Origin: Artemia franciscana
Taxonomy: Eukaryota; Arthropoda; Branchiopoda; Anostraca; Artemiidae
Assembly (NCBI RefSeq): GCF_032884065.1
Contig: NC_088880.1
Location: 32,763,298-32,827,297, forward strand
Length of the DNA stretch: 64,000 bases
Reading direction: 5' to 3'
Position numbers and translations under genes: made by a program. This document shows positions 15,301 to 61,900 of the stretch, piece after piece (positions within the stretch are counted from its first letter, which is position 1; every line of letters begins with the position of its first letter). The notes below the pieces were generated by a model, which worked only from the letters and a program-made list of their open reading frames with translations, searched no databases and had not been told where the DNA came from.

Positions 15301-18300
15301 TTTTTTCGTTTGTCTCTGTTTGTACTTTTTTCTGTATGTCTGAAACCGTTTCAGGTCCAAAAGATATCTCTCCTAGAAATACAGTGGCAAAGAAATGTTT
15401 TTCTGTGTGTATGTTTCGGCCACAATACGGCATTATTACATCTTAGCCATACTAAAAAAATTTTTATATTTAACTTTTGATTATACAATTAAAAAGAAGA
15501 AAGAAAGTGAATTTGATATACATGAAATTGACCTACTTTAACACGCTCCAAATACTATTAGGATACTATAAATTTTAAAAAGGGGCAAGCTTTGGAATAT
15601 GCTTTATTTTTGGATATGCGCATTAGTCGATTTAAATATGAACGACATATTGGGCAGCTCTGTTCACAACCGATTGATATTTAATGGAAATAAAATTGAT
15701 AACAATGCATTGAAATTAATTTATTTTTTGAGTAATTAAGTAATAACAAGAAAGATCGGAAAAATGTGAAGCTTTCGAATGTGAACAATTTCAAAGCATG
15801 AAATGTTGAATAGTCAAATGACATATTCTAATATAATATTTAAACCTCTGACCCCCTATTGTAGAAGACTTGATGGCTTTGTTAGCAGCGCTGAAAAATA
15901 AATAATAACTACTACTACTGCTACTACAACAAGAAAGCTTGAAAATAAAAGTAGTCAAGTGACATATTCTAATATATATTCTTTTATTTCCCACTTTAAC
16001 CTCCGATACACTATTGTAGAGATAGATGGCTTTGTTAGTCATAAAAAAAAATTATGTGTGGTTATTTTACGTGTGTGCTACAAGGGTTTAAATTTTTTTA
16101 AGGTAGGTTTTTTTTTATTTTTGTGTTGTATTGTAGATGGCTTTGTTAGTAGCTCTCGAAAATAAATCATTGCTACTATTGCACTCTACACTATTGTAGA
16201 GGTCCCGATGGCTTTGTTAGTAGCTCTCGAAAATAAATCGTAGCTACTATTGCACTCTACACTATTGTAGAGGTCCCGATGGCTTTGTTAGTAGCTCTCG
16301 AAAATAAATCGTAGCTACTATTACACTCTACACTATTGTAGAGGTCCCGGTGGCTTTGTTAGTAGCTCTCGAAAATAAATCGTAGCTACTATTGCACTCT
16401 ACACTATTGTAGAGGTCCCGATGGCTTTGTTAGTAGCTCTCGAAAATAAATCTTGGCTACTATTGCATTCTACACTATTGTAGAGGTCCCGATGGCTTTG
16501 TTAGTAGCTCTCGAAAATAAATCGTAGCTACTATTACACTCTACACTATTGTAGAGGTCCCGGTGGCTTTGTTAGTAGCTCTCGAAAATAAATCATTGCT
16601 ACTATTGCACTCTACACTATTGTAGAGGTCCCAATGGCTTTGTTAGTAGCTCTTGAAAATAAATCGTAGCTACTATTGCACTCTACACTATTGTAGAGGT
16701 CCCGATGGCTTTGTTAGTAGCTCTCGAAAATAAATCTTGGCTACTATTGCACTCTACACTATTGTAGAGGTCCCGATGGCTTTGTTAGTAGCTCTCGAAA
16801 ATAAATCATTGCTACTACTGCACTTTACACTATTGTAGAGGTCCCGATGGCTTTGTTAGTAGCTCTCGAAAATATATCATTGCTACTATTCACTCTACAC
16901 TAATTGTAGAGGTCCCGATGGCTTTGTTAGTAGCTCTCGAAAATAAATCATTGCTACTATTGCACTCTACACTATTGTAGAGGTCCCGATGGCTTTGTTA
17001 GTAGCTCTCGAGAATAAATCGTAGCTACTATTGCACTCTACACTATTGTAGAGGTCCCGATGGCTTTGTTAGTAGCTCTCGAAAATAAATCGTAGCTACT
17101 ATTGCACTCTACACTATTGTAGAGGTCCCAATGGCTTTGTTAGTAGCTCTCGAAAATAAATCATTGCTACTATTGCACTCTACACAATTGTAGAGGTCCC
17201 GATGGTTTTGTTAGTAGCTCTCGAAAATAAATCATTGCTACTATTGCACTCTACACTATTGTAGAGGTCCCGATGGCTTTGTTACTAGCTCTCGAAAATA
17301 AATCGCAGCTACTATTGCACTCTACACTATTGTAGAGGTCCCAATGGCTTTGTTAGTAGCTCTCGAAAATATATCATTGCTACTATTCACTCTACACTAA
17401 TTGTAGAGGTCCCGATGGCTTTGTTAGTAGCTCTCGAAAATAAATCGTAGCTACTATTGCACTCTATACTATTGTAGAGGTCCCGATGGCTTTGTTAGTA
17501 GCTCTCGAAAATAAATCATTGCTACTATTGCACTCTACACTATTGTAGAGGTCCCGATGGCTTTGTTAGTAGCTCTCGAAAATGAATCATTGCTACTATT
17601 GCAGAAAAGCTTGAAAGAATGTAAAAGCTTGAAAAGTTAAATAATATATTCTAACATATATTCTGTTATATCTGATTTCAACTTCTGACTAGACTTCTCA
17701 CTAAACTTTAAAAGGCTACAGATGCAAAAATTGCACGACCAACTTATGAATATAGGAATGGCACCATGAATCGCCCCCAGTTTTAAGCACCATGAGACTT
17801 AAAATTCATCAAATAAAATCAAAACAACACCAGTCTTTAAAGCAAAGTACATTCAAACCTTTTCAATCTGTGGACTAGATTGCTTGAGTTCAGTCTGAGT
17901 CCTTGGAGGGGTAGCATCTGGTTGCTCAATAGCAGCACCAAGTTCAGGACTCTTTTTTGGTACGATTCCTTCTACGTGAGGAGGGAGGTCCAAAATACAC
18001 TTCAATTTCCAATCATGTATGTCCTCTGGTGCAACTTCCTTCCACTGGAAAACGCAAAAAATATTTAAAATGTTACCAATTAAATGTAGATAAATAAAGA
18101 ATTATTTAAGGAGAAATTTTCAAAGAAACGAAAGGTGCTAATAAGATTTGATTGTTCGAATTTGTTAGGTGAAAACCAACGCAACCAGAAATATGTTTAA
18201 AAATTAGGAAAAATTAGAAATTAAATTCGGTTGAGGATGACCTCAATATGTAATATGTGGTCCACTGGAAAACGCAAAAATATTTAAAATTTTACCAATT

Positions 18301-21300
18301 AAATTTAGAAAAGTAAAAATTTATTTAAAAATATAAAAGTAATAAAATGGAGAAATTTTCAAAGAACCAAAAGGTACCAACAAAATTTGATTGTTCGAAT
18401 TGGTTAGGTGGAAACCAACGCAACCATACATATTTTTAAAAATTAGAAAAAATTAGAAATTAAATTCGGTTGAGGATGACCTCAATATGTAATATGTGGT
18501 CCACTGGAAAACGCAAAAATATTTAAAATTTTAACCAATTAAATTTAGAAAAGTAAAAAATTATTTAAAAATATAAAAGTAATAAAATGGAGAAATTTTC
18601 AAAGAACCAAAATGGACTAACAAAATTTGATTGTTCGAATTTTTTAGGTGGAAACCAATGCAACCATACTTATTTTTAAAAATTAAGGAAAATTAGAACT
18701 TAAATTCGGTTGAGGATGACCTCAATATGTAATATGTGGTCCACTGGAAAACGCATAAAATATTTAAAATTTTAACCAATTAATTGTAGAAAAAAAAATT
18801 ATTTAAAAATAAAAATATAAGGTAACAAAATGGAGAAATTTTCGAAGAACCGAAAGGTGCTAACAAAATTTGATTGTTCGAATTTGTTAGGCGGAAAGTT
18901 AAATTCGAATTGGGATCACCTCTATATGTAATTATGTGGTTTTTGGCAGTAGCAGGTGCTGAATTGAAGAAAAAAGGAAACATGATTGAATAAAAACAGT
19001 ATAAAATAAGCTAAAAACACAGCACTAGAGAGCTTAAGAAGGTGTAGCTTACATTTGAAGGTTTAGTTGTCTTTGAAAATCAACATGTTGTTCATGTTTG
19101 AATCTTTACGAAAAAAAGCGTTGTTAGAATTAACTAATGCTTATTTTCTTTCAAGCTAAAACACGGCAAAACTGATGTAAGTGTTGTTTTGCCCCAAAAG
19201 CTTCATAACTTTGAAACAATCACAAGAAAGATATTGGAAAAAAACTGGTGGAATAAAACTAAGATGGGTCCCGGTAACAAGAAAGTGTTTATATTTCAAT
19301 GTCCTTGGTATATCATTTTCTTACTCGTAAGTATTATATTGCTTTTCTTCTTTCTCGATGAAAAAAAAAAAAAAAAACACACACTAGGGATTTCCTCTCT
19401 TCTCATTCTATAAACAGTAAAGGAAATTAATTTTATATAATAAGGTCATTTTCACCATCTGCCTAATGCCCCATTCACAATGAGATTTTACTAATACCGA
19501 GATTTATCTAGTTTTAATTTAAGTTGCTCAAAACTTCCGTGGATTTTTCGAGCTGATCAGAAAATTCTGATTGGCTCAAATTAGCGCCAGCTAAATCTCG
19601 GTATTAGTAAAATGTCATTGCAAGTGGGCCTTAAAGCAATTTTCTCTTTACATTAATTTCAATAATATATTTGAAGTCTTCAATTAGAAAAAAAACACAA
19701 AACAATTTTTTCCCATTTTTCCACTCTCTCTCTTAAATGGATTTTGTTTAACATAGCTTTTGGAATGCAACAACCCACAGTTGGGTACTTACCACCTTTT
19801 CTAAATTCCTCATTCCCTCATAGTCTAACATAACTTTTGGAATGCAAACACCCATAGTTGAATGCTTACTTTGTTATCTAAATTAGTTATTTTGTCATAG
19901 CTCAACATAGATTTGGGAAACACCCACAGTTAAGTTCTTACCACGTTGTCTAAATTGGACAGCCCATCATAGCTTAACATAGCTCTTAGAATGCAACTAC
20001 CCACAGTTGAGTACTTACCACGTTGTCCAAATTACCAAGTTACCAAATTACCTTCAGAAGTACTTACCACGTTGTCTAAATTGATCATTCCCTCTGGAAC
20101 TGCAACAGAAAGCACTTGAAACTTGTGTTTTCCTCTTTCAGCTGGATCGTTAATATCAAAAGGCTGCAGACTTACTGGAATAAGGAAAAACCAATTAAAG
20201 CTACTGAATCACACTTTCCTGCACAATCACATGACTGAACAGGAGAAGAGATTCCAGGGGAACCAGGACATAAGGACATTGATGCTGTGGACTTCTTTTC
20301 AGTTTTTCAGACAAAATCAGTTCATATAAACTATTTTTACTTTCACCCTACAATAAAAACTGATCTAAGATACCAAGGCAAAAGTGGTGACTGAAATTAA
20401 AACATATTCAACAGCAAATTCAAAGCTACGCCACTTGAAGATAAATTAGAAGATATAAATTAACTTAATAAGATGCTGGTTAAGTTTCAACCACGATGAA
20501 GGCCAAAATGCATTGGAGAAATTACCCACCACCCTGATTACGATATGATCTAAATAATATCATATTTTTAGACAATTAATCATGTCCAGAATTTTCTTTA
20601 TCCATCCCTTCTTTTCCGAGATTTCCGAATTCAGATTGTTTTATTCAATTCATATTTGTCATTTCATAATTTTAAATTTTTATTTGATTTTTGAATTTGT
20701 TTTCTTATTGCTGAACTAGTCTTGATGTTTGAAATTAATGCACTGTTGCAGATATCTGTTAGAGACTGAAAGTAAGGAGGAGCATTAAAAATTAGAACAA
20801 ACAATAATTATTCTGTATATGAGGGGACTACCCTTCCTCATCCCTTGCTCTTTACACCAAAGCCTTACAGTTCTTTAAAAATATTTCTCATAAAAATTCA
20901 ATGGCCCTATTATTTCAGGAGTTGTTCTTAGAGAATCAGGGCATAAAGTCAAAAGTTGGTGTAAAAACAACTTTCTTACGAACAAATCTTACGATTTGTA
21001 AGTATATCAATTGCAACAATCAATATACAGAATTTGAAAAGCTTTCTATTTGGTGAAGACTTATTGTGTTCTGCCAATTTTTAATCCAACTCCCGACTAG
21101 GATCAGAGATCATCAATTATTTTATTAACATGGAACAAAAATACACTTACGAACAAAATCTAATTTCTTAAAATTCGGCAACAAGGAACAGATATCAGTC
21201 AAAAAATTAATCATCATTGAATATAATCACAACATGAAAAGCAACCCCAATTTTTTCAGTAGTCCACTCAGAATTTGACCAATCAAACTACTGCAATACA

Positions 21301-24300
21301 TATTATAGAGAAATAGCTCTTATCTAGTGTGCAGTTTTGTTTTAAGGACGTTCAATACCAAATATATCATTTGCAAGTCTCAGCATTGGCTGACTGTCTC
21401 AAAGACAAACAGCCTATTAGCCAAGTTTTCTCAGCACCACAGTGAACTTCCAAAGCAATTTTGGTACAAATTGATAGGAAATCTTAGATGAGTCAACAGT
21501 TCAAAAAGCTAACAAGAGACTAAATTAAAAGAAAGGAAGCCTAAAAATCTCTTACTAATTGCTATGCAAAACGCTGTCTAATCAATGTACCTACAGCATA
21601 AAAAATGTGGATCCTGTATGCACAAAGATTTCAATCAAGGCAGTTAGCACAACAGGAAACTTCAAAAGCTGTCAAATTATTCAATTAGACTTCTTTTGAG
21701 CTAATTTGTAATAATTTCCAAGCAGATATACTAGAATATTCTTAGAAAATGCACTTTTCTCAACTTAAAAAAAAAAATTCTGCTCCATTAAATAAAAAAA
21801 AAACAAAGTTTATACTTTCTAATTATTTAAGTTTCATTAAACCTGAAGATCCCCATCTCTGGCACAAAACTGGAGAAGTTAAATGGTTTTTCTAAGATTT
21901 CCAGGCAAATAGGTGTTGGCTTGTCAGGTTGGATCTTTTATCTAAGCTATACTAGTTATGGGAAGACCCCCCTCCCAATTGATTCTGAATAGTTTGACCA
22001 CACAAACTAAAACGTTTTGATGGATGCAATCAGATGGATCGTCAACATATCAAACAACCTAAAGCATTTGTCTAAGAGTAATGACATTCTACCAATAGAA
22101 GACCTTGGTAGTATAGTGGTAAGCATCCCTGCCTGTCACACAGGAGACTAGGGTTCAATTCCCTACTGGGGGAGGATATTTTTTCTCTCTCTAAGGATAT
22201 TTCTCTTAGTGCCATTTTCAGGCAGAGATAAGAGATCTCTGCCTGAAAATGAAAATCTACCTTTTGCTAGTGACCAAGTAAGTTCTCCATAAACCCTCCT
22301 CAGCTCCAACTTATCAGCTTTATTTAATATAATTCTACCAATTGAAGAATTTATTTCAGGAGGAGGCACATATTTGTGAAAATAGCAAAAAGATTCTGTT
22401 TAAATGTAACATAGACAAAATTTTTGGAAACTCATGTAAACACAGAAAATAGGGAAAATGATACCCCTCCCCACATGAAAAAACCCAATCACAATATTTC
22501 TGTCAAGTTGTTGTTAAAAATCGATAGCAAGAAATAGACATAATAGCAGCAAAATACAACTTACCCAAAATGGTAACAGAGCTATTAGCTTCCAAAACAC
22601 CAGTTGTGGGCTTTACACAGTATTTCCTTGGGGCAGTAGTTTTCACTTTGAAACATACACGTTTTTCAGTCTTATTGGATATTACCATTGTTGCAGTTGA
22701 TGGGCCATTGAAAGGTCCTGCAAAACCAAGATTTGTTTACATAGCAATTAGATAAACTCACAGAAAAATTATCTGAAATAAATTATTATATTATATGTAT
22801 TATTAATCACTATTAATAGATTAACCAGCACACCTTTATTAGATACAATCTGGATATAATCTCATTATACAGTAAGACTCAATCGTGATTCCCTATGGAC
22901 TTCTCTTAATCAACCTTGAACTTGCATGTTCTGAGTGAAAATTCCCTTGGGAACTTTGATTAAGAATTAACCTGAGTGATTTCCCTAGAGTCATTTAGTA
23001 TCCGATTGTTTTGATCTATTTACTTTTGACATTTTTGCAATTTGAACTTGGTGTACTCAGTAGCGATATTTATTATGGATCCGGAGCAGTGTGGTATCTG
23101 TTTAAAAAGAATTACAAGCAAAACAGGCGGCGTGCAGTGTATCAAATGTAATAAATGGTCTCATTTTAGTTGTGGAAAAACTAAATACTCTAATGACTTG
23201 AAGAAGACCTTTGTGTGCGTAATTTGTACAGAAAAAGATTCCCCTAAGACTTTTACTCTGAAAAAACTGAGATCGAAAAATAATAGTCCGAAACAGCAAA
23301 GTAACAACGATAAAATCCAGGATCAACTTCTAAAGAGCACTATCTTCCCAGTAGAAAACTTGTCATCTAAATCTCCAGGCATTCCTGGCGGTGCACTGAG
23401 AATTATGGATACTACAGAAAATATCACCGAGGAAAGAATCGATACTATAGAAAATATCACCGAGGAAAGAAATGACTACTCAGGTCCTGATCTGAGCTGC
23501 CTCTTATGTGACGAACCGACAAAAGACAGCCCTTCGTTTGATTGTCACCTTTGCTTACACCGCATGCATGCGGCCTGCGCTGCAATTGATGCAGACATAG
23601 TTCTTGCTCTGCAGAAACCCTCGGGACGTTTCTTTCTTTTTACCTGTGAGAAGTGCTTAAACCAGGGTAATATAACCAGCTCTAAAGTTCTCAGTAATAA
23701 TGTATCTGTTCAATGCAGTAGCTTTGTTACTAGTCAAACAACACAAACCGACCTAGAGTATTCTCAGTCTCCGCATACAGATAAAGAGGGTGTTACAACA
23801 GATCATATTCCCGAACGACGTGTCTGCAGATTTCACATAAGGCGAGGCTGTAGAAAGGCGGAGAATTGCACGTTTCTCCATATTTGCTTGGATTATTTCA
23901 AAGGCATCTGCCGTGATGAGTGTTGTATTCTGCCTCACAGATCTTTGTGTAAAAAATTTGCTCATGGCCTTTGTTTCATGAACTGTTGTCCTAATGTGCA
24001 TCTCACTTCCCCCAGAAGGAAAAAGCTACGTTCCAATACTGAATTGCGAAGTTCAAAAAACGGGGAGCGAAAAATTCCACCTCTGTTAAAACATGGTTGC
24101 CAAAGACAACAGTTTACAGTCCCACTTATGAGTTTGAAGCTAAAACCACCTGTCTTAAATCAGCCAATGCAGATCCCTCCCCCCTCATACCAACCACTCC
24201 TCGTGAAAACTTGGAGAAACTGGCAAGAACCAACATCTGCCAGCCTTCCGACAATATATCCAGTACTAACAACCAACCAATTTGGAATTTCAAAGAAATC

Positions 24301-27300
24301 AAAGATTCACCCACCCCTCAAACCATGTCTTCCGAGTATCCCAACTTGGAACCGATTCAATGTGTTGGCAAGGAGATTCGAGACCGCAGTGTAAAGCCCC
24401 CCTTTCATCCCTATATATTTCCGAAAATACTATTATCAAATGTCCGGTCACTTATGAACAAATTAGAAGAGGTTGAACTTTGCTTGAAGAATGAACTGGT
24501 TGATATTGCTTGTATCTGTGAATCATGGTCCGCGACTGAAGATGTTGTAGCATTTGAAGGATATGATACTTATTTCAAACCTAGAATGACACCCAATGAT
24601 ATTTCAGTAACACATGGTGGTGGTGTTGGTATTATTTGTCGATCGTCTATAAGAAATCGAGTTCTCACTTTCAGTAATATACCAAATAAGCATGGTTTTG
24701 AAGTATTATGGTTGTGGTGCAGGCCTAAGAAGCTTCCCAAGGAAGTGGCATCACTGGTGATATGTGTTGTTTACTATCCGCTCTGTGGCCCCTATCGTAA
24801 AGACCTTGTGAATTACTTACAGAATTGCACTGACAATGCACGATCTTTGTATCCTAATGCTGGTATCATAATGTGTGGTGACTTTAATGACTTAGATGCC
24901 AAATGGCTAAGTAATTCACTATCACTTAAGCAGGTTGTGAATGTGCCCACAAGAGGTAACCGTATGTTGGATCTCATTTTTAGCAACTGTCCTGAATATT
25001 ATAATACTCCAGTTACATTACCCCCATTAGGTTTGAGTGATCACTTGTGTGTTGCTTGGACACCCAATCATTTTATCCCAAATCGACAAATAAATAGTGT
25101 GGTGTACAGGCCTTTCTCACCTGAACTAGTAAATCTCTACAAGAATTGGCTCACAGATCGTGACTGGCGTGATATTCTCTCATTGTCTGACGGTGACAAA
25201 ATGGCAAGTTTATTCTGTAAGGAACTATTCGAAAAATACTGTGAAATTTTCCCACAAAAAAAAATATATGTGAAATCTAATGATAAACCATGGATTACTC
25301 AAGAGATTCGGAATCTGATAAAAGTGAGGAACGAATTGCATTTAACTGGATCCGTAAAAGATTTCAAAAGAGTAAGAAATTTAATTGTATGTAAAATAAG
25401 ATGTTCTCGTAAGCAGTATGGGTCTAAAATAATAAGCAAAATATATAAATCCAACCCAAGGAAGTTCCATGACTTAGTTCAGAACATTATCGGGAAAAAA
25501 GTAACCAGAGTTGAAGTGAGAGATGTCAATGGTAAACCCATGTTACCTAGTGAAATTAATAACTTTTTTGCATCTGTTTGTAAAATTCATCCGCAACTAA
25601 GAACATTACAACCGAATGATTCAGTTTCAAATATCCCTATACTAGAGATTTGTTCAGTTGCTAAAAAGTTAAAGGCACTTGATTCTCGTAAATCTAGTTA
25701 TCCTAGTGAGATACCAATTAAATTGATTATTGAGTGTGCTGATCTTTTATCTACTCCTTTAACGGCAATTTTTAACCAGTGTTTTATTGATGGTGTTTTC
25801 CCATGTACTTTTAAACAGGCATATGTAACGCCAATCCCCAAATGCAAGGCACCTAAAGATATAACCGAGATGAGGCCGATTTCGAAAACTCCAGCTCTCT
25901 CAAAAGTATTTGAAAGTTTTATTTTTGATTGTTTATTTGAGGACATAAATGATAATATTGATCCCCAACAATTTGGATTTAGATCCGGGCATAGTACTGT
26001 TCATTATTTGGTTGCATTATTGGATACTATCCTTAAGCACTTAGAGAATAATGGGGCCTATGTTGAAGCATTATTTGCAGACATAGTTAAGGCTTTTGAT
26101 AGTCTTGATCATAATGTAGTTGTGGAAGAAGCAAAGGCTATGGGTGCCCGTCCATTTGTTGTACGAATGCTAGCTAGTTTTCTTTTTGAAAGATCTCAGT
26201 GTGTCCAACTTCCTGATCATGAGCCATCTGAATTTGTAAATATTTTTTGTGGTTCGCCACAAGGGACTAAATTAGGCCCGCTTTCTTTTCTTATTGTTTT
26301 TAACCGTATTTTAACAACAATACGTGAGCGTTTTAAATTTGCTGATGATTTAACTGTTTTATCACTGCGACTAAGCCCTCCGACTACTGAACAGTCTGAC
26401 TTGATCAAAATCTATCATGATCTAAAAGCTGAATTAGGAAAGGTAAAACTGGCGGTCAGTGAAACTAAGAGCTCTTATATGACATTTTCCTTCCTAAAGG
26501 GAAACAACCACTCTTCTCATAATTCCATACTGCCAACAAAGAAAACTGTTAAAATACTTGGGATTCTTTTGGACGATGATTTAAGATGGAATTCGCACGT
26601 TGACTATCTGACTAAAAAAGGCGCCTCGCTTTTACATTCATTTTCCAACCTAAAAAGATTTGGTACACCAACTGAGGTTTTAAAGTCTGTATACTGCAGC
26701 TATGTTAGACCTTCTCTTGAGTATGCATGCCCTGCTTGGCATCCGGGATTGACAAAAGATCGAACAGATAGACTTGAGACAATACAAAAAAGAGCTGTAA
26801 AAATTATACTTGGACAAAATTACTCAACTTACGAAGATGCACTGAAACAACTCAATTTGGACTCACTTGATAGTCGTAGACATGGCTTAACATATAGATT
26901 TGGACTAAATTGTTTAAATTCCCCAGCTCATTGTCGTCTACTACCCAACTTTGCGAGCCCCCCAAGTGGAGGACCAGTTACTAGACTTCGACAAATAAAA
27001 AACAATTGTCCACAGTTACTGACTTGCTCAGCATATAGTACTGAGAGATATCGCAAATCATTTGTTCCATATTTTACCCGTCATTTTAATAATATTGACG
27101 CGACTAATATTTAATGTTTGATTAATATATTGTTTGTTTAAATTTTCCTGTGAGTGTTTTTGAAGGTATAAATTATTTTTGTCATGACATGCTAATGCTA
27201 GCTCCGGCTATTGCAGTGAATAAATATATTCTATTCTATTCTATTCTATAGAAGGAGAAAGATACCCTCTTATATTAGTTCAAGCACCCCTTCCCTCATT

Positions 27301-45414: not shown

Positions 45415-47205
45415 ATTGTGATTTAAGATAATTAATACTAACATCACTAACACCATTTTACTGACATTTAAAATTAAAACGGATTAATATCCATAATTTG
45501 TTCCATGCCCTGCAGCTTATAGGCATTCGTTGGTATTTTTTTTTTTAAGCCGGGTAATATGTTATGATTTAAGGTAATTCATACTAACATCACTAACACC
45601 ATTTTACTGACATTTAAAATTAAAACGGTTTAATATTCATAATTTGTTCCATGCCCTGCAGCTTATAGGAATTCGTTGGTATTTTTTTTTTAAGCCGGGT
45701 AATATGTTGTGATTTAAGGTAATTTAAGGTAATTCATACAAACATCACTAACACCATTTTACTGACATTTAAAATTAAAACGGTTTAATATTCATTATTT
45801 GTTCCATGCCCTGTAGCTTATAGGAATTCGTTGGTATTTTTTTTTTAAGCCGGGTAATATGTAGTGATTTAAGGTAATTTAAGGTAATTCATACAAACAT
45901 CACTAACACCATTTTACTGACATTTAAAATTAAAACGGTTTAATATCCATAATTTGTTCCATGCCCTGTAGCTTATAGGAATTCGTTGGTATTTTTTTTT
46001 TAAGCCGGGTAATATGTTGTGATTTAAGGTAATTCATACTAACATCACTAACACCATTTTACTGACATTTAAATTAAAACGGTTTAATATTCATAATTTG
46101 TTCCATGCCCATCAGCTTATAGGAATTCGTTGGTATTTTTTTTTTAAGCCGGGTAATATGTTGTGATTTAAGGTAATTCATACAAACATCACTAACACCA
46201 TTTTACTGACATTTAAAATTAAAACGGTTTAATATTCATTATTTGTTCCATGCCCTGTAGCTTATAGGAATTCGTTGGTATTTTTTTTTTTTTTAAGCCG
46301 GGTAATATGTTGTGATTTAAGGTAATTCATACAAACATCACTAACACCATTTTACTGACATTTAAAATTAAAACGGTTTAATATCCATAATTTGTTCCAT
46401 GCCCTGTAGCTTATAGGAATTCGTTGGTATTTTTTTTTTTTTAACCCGGGTAATATGTTGTGATTTAAGGTAATTCATACAAACATCACTAACACCATTT
46501 TACTGACATTTAAAATTAAAACGGTTTAATATCCATAGTTTGTTCCATGCCCTGTAGCTTATAGGAATTCGTTGGTATTTTTTTTTTTTTAAGCCGGGTA
46601 ATATGTTGTGATTTAAGGTAATTCATACAAACATCACTAACACCATTTTACTGACATTTAAAATTAAAACGGTTTAATATTCATTATTTGTTCCATGCCC
46701 TGTAGCTTATAGGAATTCGTTGGTATTTTTTTTTTTTAAGCCGGGTAATATGTTGTGATTTAAGGTAATTCATACTAACATCACTAACACCATTTTACTG
46801 ACATTTAAAATTAAAACGGTTTAATATTCATAATTTGTTCCATGCCCTGCAGCTTATAGGAATTCGTTGGTATTTTTTTTTTTAAGCCGGGTAATATGTT
46901 GTGATTTAAGGTAATTTAAGGTAATTCATACTAACATCACTAACACCATTTTACTGACATTTAAAATTAAAACGGTTTAATATTCATAATTTGTTCCATG
47001 CCCTTCAGCTTATAGGAATTCGTTGGTATTTTTTTTTTTTAGCCGGGTAATATGTTGTGATTTAAGGTAATTCATACTAACATTACTAACACCATTTTAC
47101 TGACATTTAAAATTAAAACGGTTTAATATTCATAATTCGTTCCATGCCGTACAGCTTATAGAAATTCGTTGTTGTTGTTCATTTTTTGTTTTTTAAGCCG
47201 GGTAT
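45415..47205. repeat. ~145-bp satellite, about 12 units
   Basis: Each unit has ATCACTAACACCATTTTACT, AAAATTAAAACGGTTTAATA, TTTGTTCCATGCCC, ATTCGTTGGTATTTT with a T run of 9-14, and AAGCCGGGTAATATG. Units are highly similar except at the edges (first unit near 45415 and last near 47060-47200), where they decay. Some units (for example near 45715, 45865 and 46905) carry an extra AAGGTAATTT, giving length classes. Confidence 0.93.
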
Positions 47206-49370
47206 TATATGTTGCATTTACCATTAAGTTAACTATTTCAAATTCAGAAATATGTTGATATTTGTGTTATATTAAAAAATAGAATTAAAGTTACTTGCTA
47301 ATAAGGGGGCGCCTTAGCCCCCCTAAACCTATGCCATGAAGTGTCCTCCCACATTCATCCATTGTTTTCTTAGATGAGAAACTTACAAAGGTTGTTTTAT
47401 GATCCCCAATTGGAGAATCGGGTGAAATTTTTTTTATATTTTGGGTGACAAACCGTATAGCCTACCATGTCCATATTTTTAATTTCAGATCAAAAGGAAT
47501 GGAAAAACAACCCGGAGGCAAAGCTTACTAAAGAGCAGATTTGTTTTAAATCCTACAGGACATGAATACTTAAAAGACAGAAGAGGTATTTTCCTAGCAG
47601 GAATTTGCCAGAAATATCGTGATTTTGTAGTTCTAATTTTTTGAAGAATCCCCCCCCCCCCAGAAAAAATCCATAAAGCACGAATCTGTTCTTAATACAG
47701 CATCGTTCCATATATTACAAGATTGCCTGATTGTTACGAGGTTCTAAAGCGTTTCATTCTTAATCAACAGAATCGAAAAATTTCCAAGCATTTATTTAAC
47801 ATTAACTTGTATATACATAATTTATCTAGATTTATTCGTCTTTCCGTTCAAAGGTATAATGAACAACTCCAGGGGTTGGACGTTGGGGTGCCACCTAAAA
47901 AATAAAGAATAGGTAATAGACAAAATAAGAACCAACAGAAAACCCAACAGAAAAAGAACCAACAGAAAATAAGAACAATAAGAACCAACAGAAACTATGA
48001 CGACAGAACATGGAAGTGTCCAGATAACTATTTTTTGTTTTTAACCAATTGAGTTTTTTAAGATATCAGTGTAAGAAAATACCAACATTTTGTGGCAGGG
48101 GTTGGTGTTCCCAAATTACGGATGGGTAATATTGTCACTTATACAAGAATCGAATAATTTACAATCCATGGATACGCAGTAAATGGTTATAGCATTAGTG
48201 TTGATTTGGTTTTTTGAGCCCACCATTACAATTTTCCACGTCCATAACGATTGTATTGGTAGTGAGGGCTTTTTGGATTTAGAATGACCCATAGCCACTA
48301 CACTTTTCTTCCTTAATGCATAAGAAAGTTATGCAAGTGCTTATCAAATCTTATGGTTTTGTACTTTAAGTGTCCAGTCTACGAGTCATATTTTGTATTA
48401 CAATTATTCCCTTTGTCAATTTGGTTTCAACATATACAACATATAGAGCTTGATTTTATCATGAAAATATCCGAAAAATGCCTTAGGAAGGAGTCATTCT
48501 AAACATAGTAACAAATAACTAAACAACAGCTAACATGAGAAATATCGAGTCAATGAGATGAACTAAGGGTTTTCGAATTATAACATTTACAGTTACAACA
48601 TCGAGATGAACTAAGGGTCTTCGAGTTACAGCATTTCTGCAAGTATACTTTTTCCCAGAACCGAATAGATGTACCAAGTGCAACTTTGAAACCATAATGG
48701 TAGAGTAGTGAGGCAAATCAAAAGAGTATGTTCACCAAGTATATCAAAATAGCATATCTTTACTAACCTGGAAACGACTAGGGGATCAAGCTAGAACTTT
48801 TATATAACATTTTAGGAGGGTACCCCATTACAATTTTCCACATCTATAACGAATGTACTATGTTTAAATCGAAGGAGACCAGGGATAATCAATAAATCTT
48901 GGTTTTTTATTGATATGAGTATCTAGTGTGAGGCATAGTACTACTGCATGGTTCTTCTGGTTTTGGGTAAGGTAAGGAGCTATGGTAATGGTAAGGAGGG
49001 TAGGCTATGGTAATGAGGTTATCGTAGGGAAAGTCAGGTAAGGTGAGTTATGGGTAAGAAGGAGGTTGGTAACAATATTTTTAAACTAAAAAGGATTATA
49101 CTGAATCGGCACAGCTGTATTCTGTGTCACAGATTCATCCATTTATTACAACAAGTTAACCTCTGAGTAACTAGGAATGGAATAAAATAAAGGGAAGCAG
49201 AATAAACCAACTGAGCCGGAGTTGTCAACTGAACTGAAAAGAACGTATATCCTAATCTAAAATATGGGGACGCTTTAAGTTACCCCGTGGAAGCGCAATT
49301 GAAATGATTTCTGCTTGGCAATAAGGGTCCAGGATATAAAGCAGTAGGACATGAAGTTTTTCATTTGGTA
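47206..49370. other. no gene; small local duplications
   Basis: 48549-48630 has two copies of GAGATGAACTAAGGGT-xTTCGA. 48960-49070 is rich in GGTAAGG. An open stretch at 47723-47905 has no recognisable domain. A C run lies at 47650-47661. Confidence 0.45.
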
Positions 49371-51964: not shown

Positions 51965-52425
51965 AGACTAATACCTTTTCCTTTACTCATTCATGCTCTC
52001 TGTATCTCCTGTTGAACACTGTTGTACCTTTTAGTAAATAATACTTTTCCTTTCTCTTGTTCCAGCTCTCTGCTGCTCCAGCTTCACATCTCCTACTGAA
52101 CACTGCTCAGTGAATAATACGTATTCTTTCTCTTGTTCCAGCTCTCTGTTTGTATCTCCTGTCAAATACCGTTGGGTGAATAATACTTTTTCCTTCTCTT
52201 GTTCCAGCTCTCTGTTTATATCTCCTGTTGAACACTGTTGGGGGAATAGTACTTTCTCCTCCTTTTGTTCCAGCTCTCTATTCATATCTCCTGTTGAAGA
52301 CTGTTGGATAAATAATACTTTTTCCTTCACTTGATCCAGCTCTCTGTTCGTATCTCCTGTTGAACACTGTACTTTTTCCTTCACTTGTTCCAGTGCTCTG
52401 TTTGTATCTCCCCTTTGATTCTGTT
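51965..52425. repeat. 66-bp minisatellite open on both strands
   Basis: About six to seven units with TTCCAGCTCTCTGTTTGTAT, CTCCTGTTGAACACTG and AATAATACTTT. Most units are 66 bp, a multiple of three, so one minus-strand frame stays open for 117 codons as a 22-residue repeat (STGDxNRELEQEKEKVLF) and a plus-strand frame for about 75. The minus-strand reading is highly charged and would form a coiled coil if translated. Confidence 0.85.
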
Positions 52426-53030: not shown

Positions 53031-53369
53031 CTCTAGTGTATCACGCAACGATAATGCTGTCTTGATCCCGCTGGGTACCATAATAAAATGCACACATTTA
53101 TATAAAACGACTACCTCTTTGGCCTACTAGCGAAACTTTTAATATTTACTATAAATATATAAATTATTTACTAGAAATATGTAAATTACTAGTGCTATAA
53201 ATAATAAATTATTACGTGCAATATTTCATTTCAGTATTACACAATTCAATCTTGAAGGAGTTTTTATGTTTGTTTATTTTTGTGTCATTTTTCCTTTTTT
53301 TTTCTTTTTGAATACGACAGCCCCAAAATTGAACATTATATTTAGATGATCTTTAACTCCTAAAATTGC

Positions 53370-54710
53370 ATAAATACAAACTGAAACTAGAGGCCAACAA
53401 AAGGATCTTACTACTTTTGGTTTAGGGCCATATTTAACATTTCTTAAATTTTTTTTTTTTAGTTCTTAAAAATGCATAAATACAAACTGAAACTAAAGAA
53501 CAACAGAAGTTTCTTACTAGCTTTGGTGTTGGGCCATATTTGACATTTTTTCTTATATATTTTTACTTTTAGCTCATTAAAATGTAAAAATACAAATTGA
53601 AACCAGAAGTCAACAGAAATATCTTACTAGCTTTGGCGTTTAGCAATACTTAAAATGTTTTCCAGTTTCGCCTTCTAGTTTGTTTTTTTTTTAGTTCCTA
53701 AAAATGCATAAATACAAATTGAAACTAGAGGTCAACAGAACGACCTTACTAGTTTTTTTTTTTTTTTTTTTTTTTATTGGGCCACATTTACAGTTTTTTT
53801 CATAAAAAAAGTCAATTCCTAAAAATGCATAAATACAAACTTAAATTAGAAATTAAGAGGAAGATCTTACTAGCTTTGGCGTTGGGCAAGGTTCCTGTTT
53901 TTCCTTCTAAAATTTTTTAGTTCCTAAAAATGCATAAATACAAACTGAAACTAGAGGTCAACAAAAGGATCTTACTAGTTTCGGTGTTGGGCACATTTAA
54001 CATTTCTTCCATTTTTAGTTCCTAAAAATGCATAAATACAAACCAAAATTAAAGGTGAACAGAAAGATCTTATTAGCTTTGGTGTTGGGCCATATTTGAC
54101 ATATTTCCTGTGTTTTTCCTTTTATACAAGTTTATACAAATTGAAACTAGAGGTCAACAGATGGACCTTACTAGTTTTGGTGTTGGCAACATTTAATATT
54201 TTTTCCTAAGGAAAAAAATTCTATAATTTTTCAAGTTCCTAAAAATGCAGAAATACAAACTGGAAGCGGAGGTCAACAGAAGGATCTTACTAGTTTTGGT
54301 GTTGGCAACATTTAATATTTTTTCCTAAGGAAAAAAATTCTATAATTTTTCAAGTTCCTAAAAATGCAGAAATACAAACTGGAAGCAGAGGTCAACAGAA
54401 GGATCTTACTTGCTTGGTGTAGAGACGTATTTAACATTTCTTGCTAAAAAATTTTTAGTTCCTAAAAATGCATACATACAAACTGAAATTAGAGGTGAAC
54501 AGAAACATCTTACTAGCTTTGACATTGGGCAATATTTGAAATTTCTTGCAGTACTTTTCCTTCTAAAATTTATTAGTTCCTAAAAAATACATAAATACCA
54601 GCTGAAAAGTTGGTGCTGGGAGATAGCTAACATTTCTTCCAAAATTTGTTTTTAGTTCCTAAACATGCATAAATACAAACTAAAATTACAGGTCAACAAA
54701 AAGATCTTAC
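53370..54710 (-). repeat. tandem array carrying copies of an NDUFB8 splice donor
   Basis: About 12 units of 95-125 bp precede the true donor at 54710. Units share CCTAAAAATGCATAAATACA, GAGGTCAACAGAAGGATC and the junction block CTTACTAGCTTTGGTGTTGG. In minus-strand sense the junction block is the last ~24 exon bases (ending CCAAAGCTA) followed by GTAAGATC. Copies lie near 53407, 53510, 53616, 53740, 53865, 53970, 54068, 54165, 54285, 54405, 54511 and, degenerate, 54615. Most keep the GT; the one near 54068 has AT. Two neighbouring units (about 54165-54400) are almost identical, showing recent turnover. Confidence 0.9.
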
Positions 54711-54866
54711 TAGCTTTGGTGTTGGGCCATATTTGAGATCAAGAGTGAGCAATCCTATAAAGAACCCAACGAAGCCAAAGAACGCAGCGCATTGCTTCCA
54801 CACAGACACGCGCAGTCTTGAGGTATCCATACGCTCACCCACGTACATATTGAAGTCTTTGTGAAT
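54711..54866 (-). CDS. NDUFB8: NDUFB8 exon with transmembrane helix
   Basis: Acceptor TTTTTATGACAG, donor GTAAGA. 52 codons, phase 0 at both ends: [20 protein letters not shown], a hydrophobic segment of about 20 residues, then [11 protein letters not shown]. The NMYxxxRxDTS motif matches DMYNRNRVDTS of human NDUFB8. Its donor junction is the unit repeated in the array at 53370-54710. Confidence 0.92.
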
Positions 54867-57800
54867 CTGTCATAAAAAGAATAATTACATACAGTATTAC
54901 ATAGGAATTACAGTAAGGTCCATACGCTCACCTACGTATATATTGATTTTTGGAAATTTCCTTAATATATAACTGTCTTAGATTTAAAATAATTTAACAA
55001 GTAGCCCAATGATCCTTGAACAGATATCAGATCAAGCTGCGACTAAAAATATAACAATCTTTCAAAGTTAAGAATTTTTACAGCTAACTCCCAAAAATTT
55101 CCCCCGTCTTGTTCTCACCCTACCCCTCCCCCTGAAATGCCGGTTATTACTATGAAATCATTTGGTGATACGGAATGGTGATTTGTGATTTGAAATGTGA
55201 CCGCCATTTAATTGCTATACTAGCTCGTCCTCCATTCTCATTCAAAATCCTTGAATCTTTTCAAAATTCTGCTATTCGAATAGCTTCGGGTGTGCATAAG
55301 CATACTCCTCTGTCAAAGTTAAAAATACTGTCGGGATTGGTGTCCCTAAGTGAAAGAGCATCTAGTCTAAGGATAAAGTATTTCTCGCAAATCCAGGCTT
55401 ATGGAGCCAAGCATGCTGTATATGCACATACCTTTGTTGGGAAGTCAGCCTGTCCCAATGCCCATTCATCATGGAATCAGTTTCAACTGAAGGTCCCAAA
55501 CTGGAATCAACATTTGCTTTATACATATCCCTTTACTGAGTCCCCTCCATGGAAAACGAGTCCTCCAAGTTGTCAAGTAGAACTTATCTCTATTAGTAAA
55601 GACTTGATTCCTAATTACGAGATCCAGACTATTTTGGCTGAACAGATCTCAAAGGCGTACCCCAACTATAGAAAAATATATACAGATGGATCTGTAAAGA
55701 GGGAAAGAGCTGGAGCAGGAGCATGTATCCCATCCCGGAATTTGAACATGTATTCTCCTCTCCCATTGGGATCTTCTATCTTGTCTGCTGAATTATGTGC
55801 CATCCGCCTGGCCTTAGATGCACTTATAAATTATAACATGAAATCTGAAAATATACTCTGTCTCTCTGACTCTAAATCAGCATTTGTATTGATCCAAAAT
55901 ATTAATAGAATTGCTAATGAAAAGGATTTATATATTATTAGAAGGCAGCTTCTTAATCTTAAAATCAAAGGAAATGAGGTTTATTTTCAACATGTTCCAA
56001 GTCATAAAGGCATCAAATATAATGATATGGCTGATTCTCTAGCAGCAAAGGCTTCCATGTTAATTCCTAGTCCTTCCTCTGACCTCAATTCACGAGATAT
56101 TATCAGGCAAAGATCCAATGTCAATCACAGTAAATTAATTTCATCTCCATTTCATAGAAGATTAAATACGATGCTATATTACCGGCTGAAATCAGGTGCC
56201 CTACTTCTAAATAGCTTGTTATTTAATTGAAAGCTACATCATTCCCCTTTATGCCGAATCTGCTTTTCAGCAGAGGAAACAATCCACCATGTTTTATTTG
56301 ATTGCCAGGCTCAGAGTGAGGAGACTGTTGCTCTTAAGCGTTTCTGCTCCTTGGCTAAGATACACTTATACAGCTATCCTGGATTCTAACCTGCCATGGG
56401 AAATTGATCGTATGATATTTAAGGCAGCAATTGATATCTTAAAGAAGAGAAATATTGTTTAATCATGATTAAAGCTTGAAGAAGTCAATTTTTAAAAGGA
56501 CATGATTTATCTATAGTTTTTGATTGTGCAGAAGAGAGCAGGAATGAGTAGGAAGAGCGGTACCGGCCAGCCTAGTGGCCCTAATCTGCTGGGGACAGGT
56601 AACTCAGGTACTCGCACTTCCCACAATCAATAACAGTGTATTATTGTTCATAGTTGCATATATTCATTGTTTGCAGACTGGAGGAGAATAGCGCTTCCAG
56701 TGGCTAGTTTTTCTGAAGAAGTCAGAGAGGTGAAAGGACTTGTTGTTATTTGTCCATATATCTTCCTATAATTTTTGGAACTGGAACTGGCTGTTGCACC
56801 TTAAGTTCATATGACAAATGATATTTTAAAATTCTTGAATAATAACCATAACTAGTAACTGGTAATTATGTTCAGGCTGAGACCCACCCATGCTGGCACC
56901 CTGGCATATATGAAATAATAGAATTCTCAAAGAAAATTAACAAACCAATCAGTATAACTGTCTTACTAGGTGACATAAAAGAATGGGCAATTGAGGCGAT
57001 TGCTGGCAATTGAGGCGATTAAGTTGACGACATAATTTCTGAAGAAGATTGGAAGAGCAGCAACCATCTAAATCTACGAATCAGCACAATGAAAGACATC
57101 CTGTGGTGACAAGACAAGAGAGGACGGTTAATCAACCACCTCTGCCGTCGTCACCATCAACTGTTTGCTGAGCTATGTTCAAAGGAAGGATCACCAGGGC
57201 AATATATGTTATATCACACTTCGATCCTACAAATCAAACAAATGAAAATATAGAAAATGGGATATAATATTTTAAATAAGACAGTGGACAAAAGAGGAAA
57301 AAACAAACTTTTAATAATAAAAAAAAAAGGTCCGAATATTCAACTAAAAGCCTTTTTCAACGAAAAACAAAACAAACAACAAACTGAAAAGAACGTTTAA
57401 ATAAAATAAAAGACAAAAAAAAACCCGGCAAAAACCCCCGCAAAAAAATCACGGTTGACATATTGAATATTATTTATATCTGAGTTTTTTTTGGTTTTTG
57501 TTTTCTTTTTGCCTTTCATTGTATTTATATCTTCTGTTTAATTTAGTGTTTGTTTTTCGTTGAAAAAGGGTTCTGGACACAAAGTCGAAATATTTGGACC
57601 TTTTTTTTTATAAAAGTTTGTTTGTTTTTTCCTGTTTTGTCCACTGTTTTATTAAAAATATTATATCCGTTTTTCTATTCATACATTTGTTTAATTTGTA
57701 AATAGAAACGCAGCGCGGTCCAAGAAATTATTTACACTTTGGTTCTCCTGATCTACATCACCATGTTGATCTTCCTTATGAGAACTTCCTTATGAGAAAT

Positions 57801-58893
57801 TATTTACACTTTGGTTCTCCTGATCTACATCACCATGTTGATCTTCCTTATGAGAACTTCCTTATGAGAAATTATTTACACTTTGGTTCTCCTGATCTAC
57901 ATCACCATGTTGATCTTCCTTATGAGAACTTCCTTATGAGAAATTATTTACACTTTGGTTCTCCTGATCTACATCACCATGTTGATCTTCCTTATGAGAA
58001 ATTATTTACACTTTGGTTCTCCTGATCTACATCACCATGTTGATCTTCCTTATGAGAACAGCTTCAACAGTGTTCTCAATTACCTCATAAGTACGAAAAT
58101 GTCACTTATGTTGGCGCAATAGCAATAACCTCAATGATATCTTACAGCCTATAAATGCAACGTTCCTCAAACTTTCTCCCTTTTCAAACTACTTAAAAAA
58201 TTATATATCCTGCATCACACTATTTGAGAACTTTATTCTTATGTATATATCCAATCCTACAGCAGGCCTGCACTTTTCGGCATTCTGGCCATTTCCAAAG
58301 AATTGTCAGGCAGGATAGAGTCTAATCTTGAATGAAGGTTGAGTCCCTTACAGCAACAATCTAAGAATTGTAAAGCAAAGTGAGATTCTCCAGCTCCCAG
58401 AAACTAGGAGTCATCCTAAGTTCCAAAAGCCTCTTCCCTGACGAGTCCATTCTGACACTACACACGTCAATTATCAGACAAGTCAAGGAATATGTACATC
58501 CTCTTTTTGCTGGCGCTCCAACTAGTCCCATAGCTCCTCTTCAACGTGTCCAAAACCGAGCAGCCCGCACAGCAATTTTTAGAAACTCTAATTCCAAACC
58601 CCTACAGTCAATCCAGGAACAATTTGAACTGGATTCAATATCGGTGTTCTACAAAGGTTTTGCAATCAACTCGCTAAAGTACAGCTCAACAGGACTACCT
58701 TGTGAAGGGCACACCTCACCAAGAATACTTCAAGACAAATTTCGTTCGACAACCCACCACCATAAGAAATGACCTCCCAGTAGGGGTAATCCCAGAAAAT
58801 CCTTCTTGAAGGTATAATCAACACCTTAAAAGTAGTTAGAGTGGTAATTACCAGGACTAGCGGCATATCATCACTTGTGATGGAGCCGTGAAG

Positions 58894-58990
<97 letters not shown>

Positions 58991-61900
58991 GAAACTTTGC
59001 CTATGTTTCACCAAAAGTGCTTTCCATAGCCCCTGAACAAACTTCTTTCCTTAGTCATAAATAAACCCTTTTCTTTCTATTTTTTTTTAATAGAATTTGG
59101 ACGAGCTCGATTTGTTTGCAATATTTAAATGATTTTTTGTAATATTATAGACCATTTTGAGCCTAACACATTTTGTTTAAATTAGTTCTTCAAGTTTTTG
59201 TTTCTACTTTTTTTTTTCAGCGTAAGAATCTACTTTAGCTCTATTAGAGCTTGTGACAGTATTTTTGAAAAAAAAAAGATGCACTGTGGCATAGAGTATA
59301 GAGATGAATTAAACAAATTTTAGATTATAGGGGAACAGTTAAATTATACTAAAATTTAACAGGGACAAACCGGTTCTCCCCAGTTTCTTCTCCAGTAACG
59401 ATCATCCCATTGTTCATAGCCACTTCTTTCATGGGTGCCAACAAGAGGAACGTCTGGATAGTCACCACCTATTTGGGGATCAGGCTTGTAATCAGCTGGA
59501 AGCAATCCATATTTCTTTGCTGCAGCTGCAATCTCAGCTGCATTTTTGGGCACCTGGGGAGCAGGTTTCCAATCTTTGTTCCATCCTAGAACAAAAGAAA
59601 ATATTAGTTTATAATCTATAAAATCAGCTCATCAAGAATATAGTTTAAAATAGAAAATAGTTTAATAGTCAAGAAAAGTTTCTTCTTGGCCCTGGGGAAA
59701 ATTCCAAAAAAAAATCTTGAATATTAGCCCCTCTCCATAGGCACATGGGGCAACTTCCAAATTTGGAAATATTTCTAAGTCTTTCCCAGAAATGACCACA
59801 AATAGATACAGTACTAGCACCCCCAATGCATTCTAAAGGCCAGAGCATCACTTTCACTTTACTAAAAATGATTTGTAGTCCAAGCGTCGTTTTCACTACT
59901 CTTTTTACTGAGTGCTTTTTGTAATCCAATCCACATACATCTTTCTTTCCTCTTCTTTCATTTTCAAGTATTTGACTCCTCCCGAACTTCTTCAGAAAAT
60001 TATATCTATCAAATTCTGAACAAATTCTGAGCTTTTTCTCTTAGAAATCACATGGATATTTTCATTCATAAAACTAAAACCATATTATCAGATTTTAATC
60101 CAGTTTTATGTTGTACCTCCATATGGAAATCCCCATCCATTATAATTCAGCTATGTTATTCTCATGGACAATTTAAAAAAGAGCTAACTGAAAACCTCCT
60201 ATGCCTAGAGAGTTAGTTCTCTCCTCCCTTCTCTGTTTCACCTCTATCTTTCCTTTTTAATTTGTTTAATCGATTTATTTTGATTGGCATGGCATTTTTA
60301 ATTTTGTTTTTGTTGTTTTTTTTCTCTTCTTCTCTTTCTGTTTGATTTTAGCACCATTATCTAACGTAATGTTTATTCCCCCACTCTTACGGGCCAAAGA
60401 TCCTTTGTGGGGGGGGGGGGGGGGTCTAAAGCTATGTAATTTTTTTCTCTGTTTTCTTCAAATAAATTCATTTATTGATTGATTGTATGTTGTATTACTG
60501 TGAGCTTGTGTTTTATTATTAAAACAACAACGAAAATTGGTATCACCAGGTTAATCAAGGTTTAAAAATAGGAGTCATACTACACGTCACCTTCCGTTTT
60601 GAAAAACCAAAAATAAAGAAAAATTATAAGTAAAATATGTGAGGATTGTAAAATTATAATAAAATTTAATTTGAATATAATGTTACTATTCAATATAGAA
60701 ATTTTCATTTTGCTCATTATTTAATCCTAGTTCCATTGTAAAAATGGATTATATAAATAATGTCTATATATGTGTATGAACTATATTTAATATATGGACT
60801 ATATAAATTCAACTATAAAACTTTTTTTATGGCTAAAAAGAAAAACAAAGCCTCCTGTAATTCAAAAGCATCAATAAAACAGAGGCCATGCTCATAAAAC
60901 AAGTTCACTACAATTTTTAATAGTGTTTATAAACACTCGTTTTTGTGCTACCTAACTTTTCTGTAATTAACTGTCACAAGAGTATTTTGTTTTAAATTAC
61001 ATCTGATTGGGTTTATAAGTGATTAACAACGCTCTTTTTTTTTAAATAAAAGTGTTAGATTAGCCATTCAGAGACCAGATTGATTAAGCCTGTCAAAATA
61101 AAAAAATCAAGAAAATTAAAAACGAAGACATTAGTGACTTGATTTCTGATGTACTAATTACATGCAAGGGAATTTTTAGATATTTTACTTGTTAGTCTAT
61201 TTCTATTTCCTATTCAGTTGTTACTTCATATAATGATAAATAACAAATAGTAGTAAAATAAAGTAAATTGATTTTAGTATTTGTGCTTTCTGTTTTACTT
61301 TCTGTTTGATCATTAGACAATTAAATGTCCAGTAAAGATTGAGACAAGAGAAGAAGCAAATGTTGAGTTTATTTGAATAATAATTGCTGTTAGTCTGATA
61401 GTAATTTTCATATAGGACCAAAACTTTCAAAGACAATCTTTTTGGGAAGAGGCACAGCTCATTGGCTTCAATTCATTTTGGGAGGGGGCAAAACAATCAG
61501 AGGAGGAGGTCAGTGCCTACCTACACCCCCCTCTCTAATACATGCCCTCAGCAGGGTCACCAGAATTTATTTGCATATTTTAGCCCAAATTCTGTTACTT
61601 GTCTTGCTGTTTACTGCAGTGAAGCTATAGTAAAATTTAGCCACATTATTCCCCACAATATTTGGCAAGAATCAGATATTCTGAGAGCTTGTATAGGAGC
61701 TGTTCTACTACTTTAGTGGACTATTTTTTAACTTCTTTAGTAATGTGAAGTGTATTCTCAGTCAGATTTGAATGACACTGAAAATTCTGGGAAGTTTGAT
61801 GGATGTCCACTACTGCAAGTCAGGCTCCGAATATACACATTTCTGTAGACCCTACACCTACTACAGTTCACAGCTACTTTTGTGCTCATTAGGAAAGGTA

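Follow-up and report, generated by a model that had tools for sequence, protein, structure and literature searches.

A mirage-type tandem array across a splice donor of the Artemia franciscana NDUFB8 gene

In NDUFB8, a mitochondrial-enzyme gene, of Artemia franciscana, the end of the penultimate exon and its splice donor are repeated in tandem into the intron that follows, forming a real and well-formed mirage-type structure of a kind that is already in print. The array lies in a stretch of 64,000 nucleotides of contig NC_088880.1 (C18:32763298-32827297), which is referred to here as the window. It is most likely a neutral minisatellite born of local tandem duplication and removed by splicing at the authentic outer donor. 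Local tandem duplications abound in this genome, and the array appears to be a by-product of them, with no special device behind it. The new elements are how common such structures appear to be (about 5% of sampled junctions), a measured base rate against which they can be judged, and the presence of junction copies in other genes.

The NDUFB8 gene and its array-bearing junction

The gene is read on the minus strand, and the following parts of it were placed in the window:

59371..59585, minus strand: upstream exon (...NWGEP), read from the sequence and from an exon match in the species' own genome
54711..54866, minus strand: penultimate exon, with its acceptor at 54867 and its donor GTAAGA at 54710 (Pfam NDUF_B8, own-genome match and sequence)
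47832..47894, minus strand: last exon (VAPQRPTPGVVHYTFERKDE*), from an own-genome match and the alignment of PDB NDUFB8 chains
54919..54957, minus strand: the head of exon 54711-54866, copied once and in part within the upstream intron

Joined, exons 59585-59371 and 54866-54711 match Pfam NDUF_B8 with an E value of 1.1e-29, and the frame is continued by exon 47894-47832. The joined protein finds NDUFB8 chains in the PDB, with an E value of 2.3e-19 for 8b9z at full length. Three chains (8b9z, 8esw and 8ba0), which we take to be Drosophila NDUFB8, align across the array-bearing junction; the 47-residue tail alone gives E values of 0.026-0.078 (0.026 for 8b9z), with one four-residue gap just upstream and one gap of a single residue, and the PDB chain reads ...LDDKKMYRP-VAAKQYPSPGVKHYTFE opposite the tail. 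An exon end at CTA, directly before GTAAGA, is supported because this alignment crosses the junction, and protein homology makes the authentic outer donor the site most likely chosen there.

A search of the genome (1.27 Gb) matched each of the three exons individually and gave only those three; neither a second NDUFB8 copy nor a processed retrocopy, which could have proved the splice, was found in it. The partial copy of the exon head in the upstream intron has an alignment score of 26, which was reached by none of 1000 shuffles.

Anatomy of the array

The array extends well into the intron and includes the end of the coding exon itself:

53352..54736, minus strand: NDUFB8 mirage array, 12 donor-bearing units (functional one included) and one degenerate donorless unit
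54711..54736, minus strand: the exonic 26 nt of the repeat unit, in the functional exon

Each unit runs from a copy of the exon end through the donor into intron sequence, in gene sense. The motif GTAAG is found at 54710, 54513, 54409, 54290, 54171, 53975, 53870, 53749, 53627, 53517 and 53411, and ATAAG replaces it in one unit, at 54073. A first-pass annotation of the sequence had proposed about 12 tandem units carrying the exon end and the donor in gene sense, and the count stands: there are 12 donor-bearing units, of which 11 still show the 26 bases of the exon end in recognisable form and 11 have GTAAG, the functional unit being included in both figures. Beyond the functional donor, the next intron holds 11 more copies, with the exon part recognisable in ten and GTAAG intact in ten. 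The array had also been described as beginning exactly at the junction, which is not the case, as its start lies 26 nt inside the exon. The degenerate unit without a donor sits within the first inter-donor interval, of 197 bp, and the remaining ten intervals measure 98-122 bp.

The exon part is identical at all 26 positions in two distant copies (54073 and 53517) and at 19-22 of 25-26 positions in eight others; in copy 53749 it falls to 13/26 because a run of A has replaced it. The resemblance of the units to the exon end exceeds chance: a 31-nt word spanning the junction, allowed up to nine mismatches, has eight sites in the window, the functional one included, all within the array and none in the rest of the window on either strand, and 20 shuffled words gave a single match in total over the window. 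Some neighbouring units had been called nearly identical; this is true of 54409 and 54290 (92%), the sole close neighbouring pair, and not of the other pairs, which are 56-88% identical. That the array is still turning over, a further claim, is hinted at by this one pair.

A stretch of 231 bases of the array, searched against the genome with one candidate region scored and very common words skipped, gave seven matches, all within the NDUFB8 array. The confinement of the sequence to its own locus argues against a dispersed repeat, and an origin from a dispersed repeat or transposon was rejected; a stretch of another large array likewise matched its own locus only.

Two further arrays in a VAP-type gene

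The window had been credited with three junction arrays, and all three are borne out: besides the NDUFB8 donor they are found at a donor (five copies) and an acceptor (four copies) of a second gene, whose joined exons match Pfam Motile_Sperm (MSP domain) at 9.1e-21 and which we take to be VAP-type.

20068..20174, minus strand: VAP-type exon b, with its donor GTAAGT at 20067 (Pfam on joined exons)
19749..20087, minus strand: second mirage array, five copies (functional one included) of a context like AATTTAGACAACGTG followed by GTAAG
17859..18044, minus strand: VAP-type exon c (WKEVAPEDIHDWKLK...), from sequence and Pfam
18041..18897, minus strand: third mirage array, four copies (functional one included) of the acceptor TGCGTTTTCCAG followed by TGGA

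The exon b copies, which were found via the GTAAG motif, are spaced at intervals of 49, 77, 72 and 77 bp. The exon c array is built of units of about 240 bp that have four exon bases (TGGA) in common with the exon, and the two arrays occupy opposite ends of one intron. In all three arrays of the window, the repeat unit spans an intron/exon boundary, the repeats adjoin the authentic boundary and the extra copies lie on the intron side; these are the features by which mirages are recognised.

Origin of the array

From this anatomy we infer both an order of events and the neutrality of the outcome. A short tandem duplication would have captured ~26 bases at the end of the NDUFB8 exon, the donor and ~70 intron bases, and the array would then have grown by more tandem duplication as its units diverged. 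Where a duplication spans a donor, the first copy would stay joined to the exon and the others would become intronic; where it spans an acceptor, it would be the last copy that stays joined. Because the first NDUFB8 copy remains attached to the rest of the exon, all additional ones would be intronic and removed with the intron, and the array would drift near-neutrally with the coding sequence unharmed. Junction-spanning duplications could be tolerated, and expand, because the coding sequence is unchanged as long as the outer site is used. Since local tandem duplications are many in this genome, some would be expected to cross junctions by chance, donors and acceptors alike.

The reverse order, in which a minisatellite confined to the intron was there beforehand and its outer unit became the exon end, supplying the donor and the ~9 codons that close this exon, is unlikely. 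It can appeal to the tail of the exon, which is only loosely conserved relative to the presumed Drosophila chains and, from the LD residues on, is one residue longer than the aligned PDB chains, and to VAP-type exon c, where the four shared exon bases look as if the array had given the acceptor. The NDUFB8 tail nevertheless falls in the K.Y.P region of the PDB chains with the frame kept. Moreover, in a comparison with the functional unit the decoy consensus differs at 1/26 positions of the exon tail and at 6/60 positions of the intronic portion, which is consistent with a conserved tail as the source of the copies.

Decoy donors and splice site choice

That the intron contains a ladder of decoy donors is upheld by a splice-site model with assumed frequencies: the decoys score 5.3-8.3 compared with 6.3 for the functional donor, and the ATAAG copy scores -7.0. 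As the decoys score like the real donor, context, such as exon definition, would have to decide between them. The outer donor is most likely the one used, probably via exon definition, and occasional use of a decoy would yield a truncated transcript; in a conceptual reading, it leads into VRSFC*, that is, to a stop within six codons. With 4 to 12 similar splice sites beside the authentic one, arrays of this kind provide a natural experiment on site choice where the motif cannot decide.

Selection on the decoys has also to be weighed. It is improbable that mirage arrays stand genome-wide, at about one junction in 20, with their decoy donors under selection, for example as U1 sites or as a reservoir of new exon ends and introns, and it is more doubtful still that the ladder has a function in regulating NDUFB8, whether through alternative ends, through U1 sites that protect the transcript or through decoys that lower output. 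A functional ladder would fit the retention of GTAAG in 10/11 further NDUFB8 copies and in 4/4 further copies of VAP-type exon b while neighbouring columns vary. When five-base windows are ranked by conservation, ties included, GTAAG comes fifth of 82 in the NDUFB8 array and eighth of 73 in the exon b array, with a combined P of 0.04. This is a weak signal of special conservation, a hint of donor retention in these two arrays, and it is not built upon here because the copies were located by that very motif and the degenerate NDUFB8 unit, which lost its donor, was left out. There is also a precedent in human IFI6, where, according to a passage in PMC4526556, a minisatellite does provide alternative donors. 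Against a regulatory role, four other windows of the 82 in the NDUFB8 array are kept equally well or better, the downstream NDUFB8 donors lead to early stops, and junctions do not carry copies more often than other points do. The NDUFB8 array is most likely neutral.

Background rate of local copies

Three junction arrays in a single window had been regarded as too many for chance. As they fall in two genes, with one VAP-type intron flanked by arrays at either end, they could be taken to reflect a targeted process that preferentially duplicates splice junctions, a reading that is very improbable in view of the background rate of local copies: junctions show no excess over introns, either in the window or in a sample of the genome.

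Within the window, 12 junctions of NDUFB8 and the VAP-type gene were each represented by a 40-base word with the junction at its centre, and a copy was counted if it lay within 1 kb and had a local score of at least 22. Such copies are present at 3/12 junctions. Of 1500 points drawn at random from the window without its two retroelement stretches, 19.5% have one, and shuffled 40-base words reached the score in 0/500 cases. At a background of 19.5%, three or more of 12 junctions are expected with P 0.42, and an excess over chance is not supported. The rate is 19.2% of 2000 random points when exons are also left out, and 23.5-24% for intron points up to 1 kb from NDUFB8 or VAP-type exons. Words of 30 bases (3/12 junctions, 17.5% of random points) and 60 bases (2/12 and 19.5%) did not reveal any enrichment at the window junctions either. 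Arrays detected by TRF with periods of at least 10 cover 12.9% of the window.

The genome sample was made up of kinesin exons (50 of the 122 matches listed) and TCP-1 chaperonin exons (30 of the 72 listed), giving 80 loci that were merged to 59 clusters by collapsing near-identical ones. A simple consensus model, likewise with assumed frequencies, set the position of each junction. Where a match ended at the edge of a domain, no junction was assigned there, and only splice sites with a score above 3 were kept, which left 90 estimated junctions in 58 loci. A first pass over 60 loci had found copies at 3/67 junctions compared with 8.5% of intron points. In the full sample, copies occur at 5/90 junctions (5.6%), at 280/2675 intron points (10.5%, with a 95% bootstrap range of 7.0-14.5%) and at 2.6% of 422 points inside exons, so that the junction rate is close to the exon/intron midpoint of 6.5%. 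Relative to intron points there is no enrichment at these 90 junctions, and the deficit is not significant, since at the intron rate five or fewer of 90 have P 0.08. TRF places 4/90 sampled junctions within an array, compared with 7.1% of flanking bases.

Junctions in the window do carry copies more often than sampled ones (3/12 vs 5/90, Fisher P 0.050), a point in favour of targeting; the higher rate is in line with array coverage, which is 12.9% in the window and 7.1% in the sampled flanks. More generally, the background rate warns against treating overlaps of repeats and junctions as special in repeat-rich genomes.

On inspection, four of the five sampled junction matches are convincing, and the fifth (L029) is doubtful because a stop interrupts the match. 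In L070, a 24-base word covering the end of a kinesin exon and its donor has seven identical copies about 247 bp apart, a younger and cleaner example than the NDUFB8 array. At a TCP-1 acceptor (L063), eight copies of the junction word are spaced 140 bp apart and the array extends into the exon; the acceptor chosen by the model is probably about 21 bases too early, and the array spans both sites. In 8/8 matched junctions, the copy with the better match is the intronic one (three in the window and five in the sample, the doubtful L029 included). Identity within the arrays at sampled junctions is 88-99%, which together with the 92% pair at NDUFB8 suggests turnover of copies.

Tandem arrays are in general prone to misassembly, but an assembly artefact is almost certainly not the explanation, given that similar junction arrays are present on other contigs and that the NDUFB8 units, because they differ from one another by 8-44%, are not one unit repeated by the assembler.

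Relation to known systems

The closest counterparts are the mirages of amphioxus, of which the Adh case is said to have been described originally by Canestro in 2002. They are tandem repeats across exon-intron boundaries, both 5' and 3', and passages in PMC3087553 and PMC3902484 name them in Adh3, troponin C, the globins BflGb6 and BflGb9, and PGBD5, with units of ~10 to 160 bp; there, regular splicing is reported to be undisturbed, and a route to intron gain is proposed. In these accounts, amphioxus mirages resemble the arrays described here in having boundary copies at the 5' or the 3' side, many of which keep their splice signals, and in the turnover of copy number. They differ in that the present cases concern NDUFB8, VAP-type, kinesin and TCP-1 genes, are read from genomic sequence and are accompanied by a measured background rate. 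No mirage outside amphioxus was recognised in full-text searches that took in mainly open papers, with queries worded in part for amphioxus or mirages.

A human IFI6 minisatellite with multiple donors was reportedly described by Turri in 1995. Its repeat unit, of 12 nt, is far shorter than that of NDUFB8. As a passage in PMC4526556 has it, downstream repeat units of IFI6 serve as donors for different isoforms. The likeness lies in minisatellite units that present splice donors where an exon ends; the difference is that donor use in IFI6, as presented there, gives rise to isoforms, whereas use of an NDUFB8 decoy is predicted to truncate the protein.

In the Rogers model, as outlined in PMC3087553, introns are gained when AG/GT sites in the genome are duplicated in tandem, and potato RdRp is given as a case of such gain in a passage of PMC4974935. 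There too, by these accounts, tandem duplication multiplies splice signals, although in Artemia it is an existing junction that is multiplied within an existing intron. If about one junction in 20 has copies, this would be a good genome in which to test whether junction duplication feeds intron gain or alternative splicing, a model argued so far, in the sections of PMC3087553 and PMC3902484 that treat it, from a few amphioxus genes.

Other repeats and insertions

Several further repeats were noted in the window. In the last NDUFB8 intron, a 66-bp array (52083-52370) has an open minus-strand frame that reads as a repeat of 22 residues and, on the plus strand, carries a repeated acceptor-like TTGTTCCAG followed by CTCTCTG. 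A 72-bp array at 57723-58058, with a nested 14-bp repeat and open as a 24-residue repeat, has copies that are 100% identical and is probably a recent expansion. A 148-bp array at 45416-47171 comprises 11.8 copies, and a stretch of it matched its own locus only in the genome. Open reading frames of non-LTR retroelement type are found at 23075-27114 and 55169-56230, encoding a weak PHD-like finger, an endonuclease and a reverse transcriptase, with a separate RNase H open reading frame among these stretches.

Elsewhere in the genome, 75 COX1-like matches are spread over many contigs. About a dozen are near full length, with 'stops' that are TGA only, as would be expected if TGA encodes tryptophan, which it does in animal mitochondria; several of these lie on chromosome-size contigs, and the matches probably represent many mitochondrial insertions in the nuclear genome.
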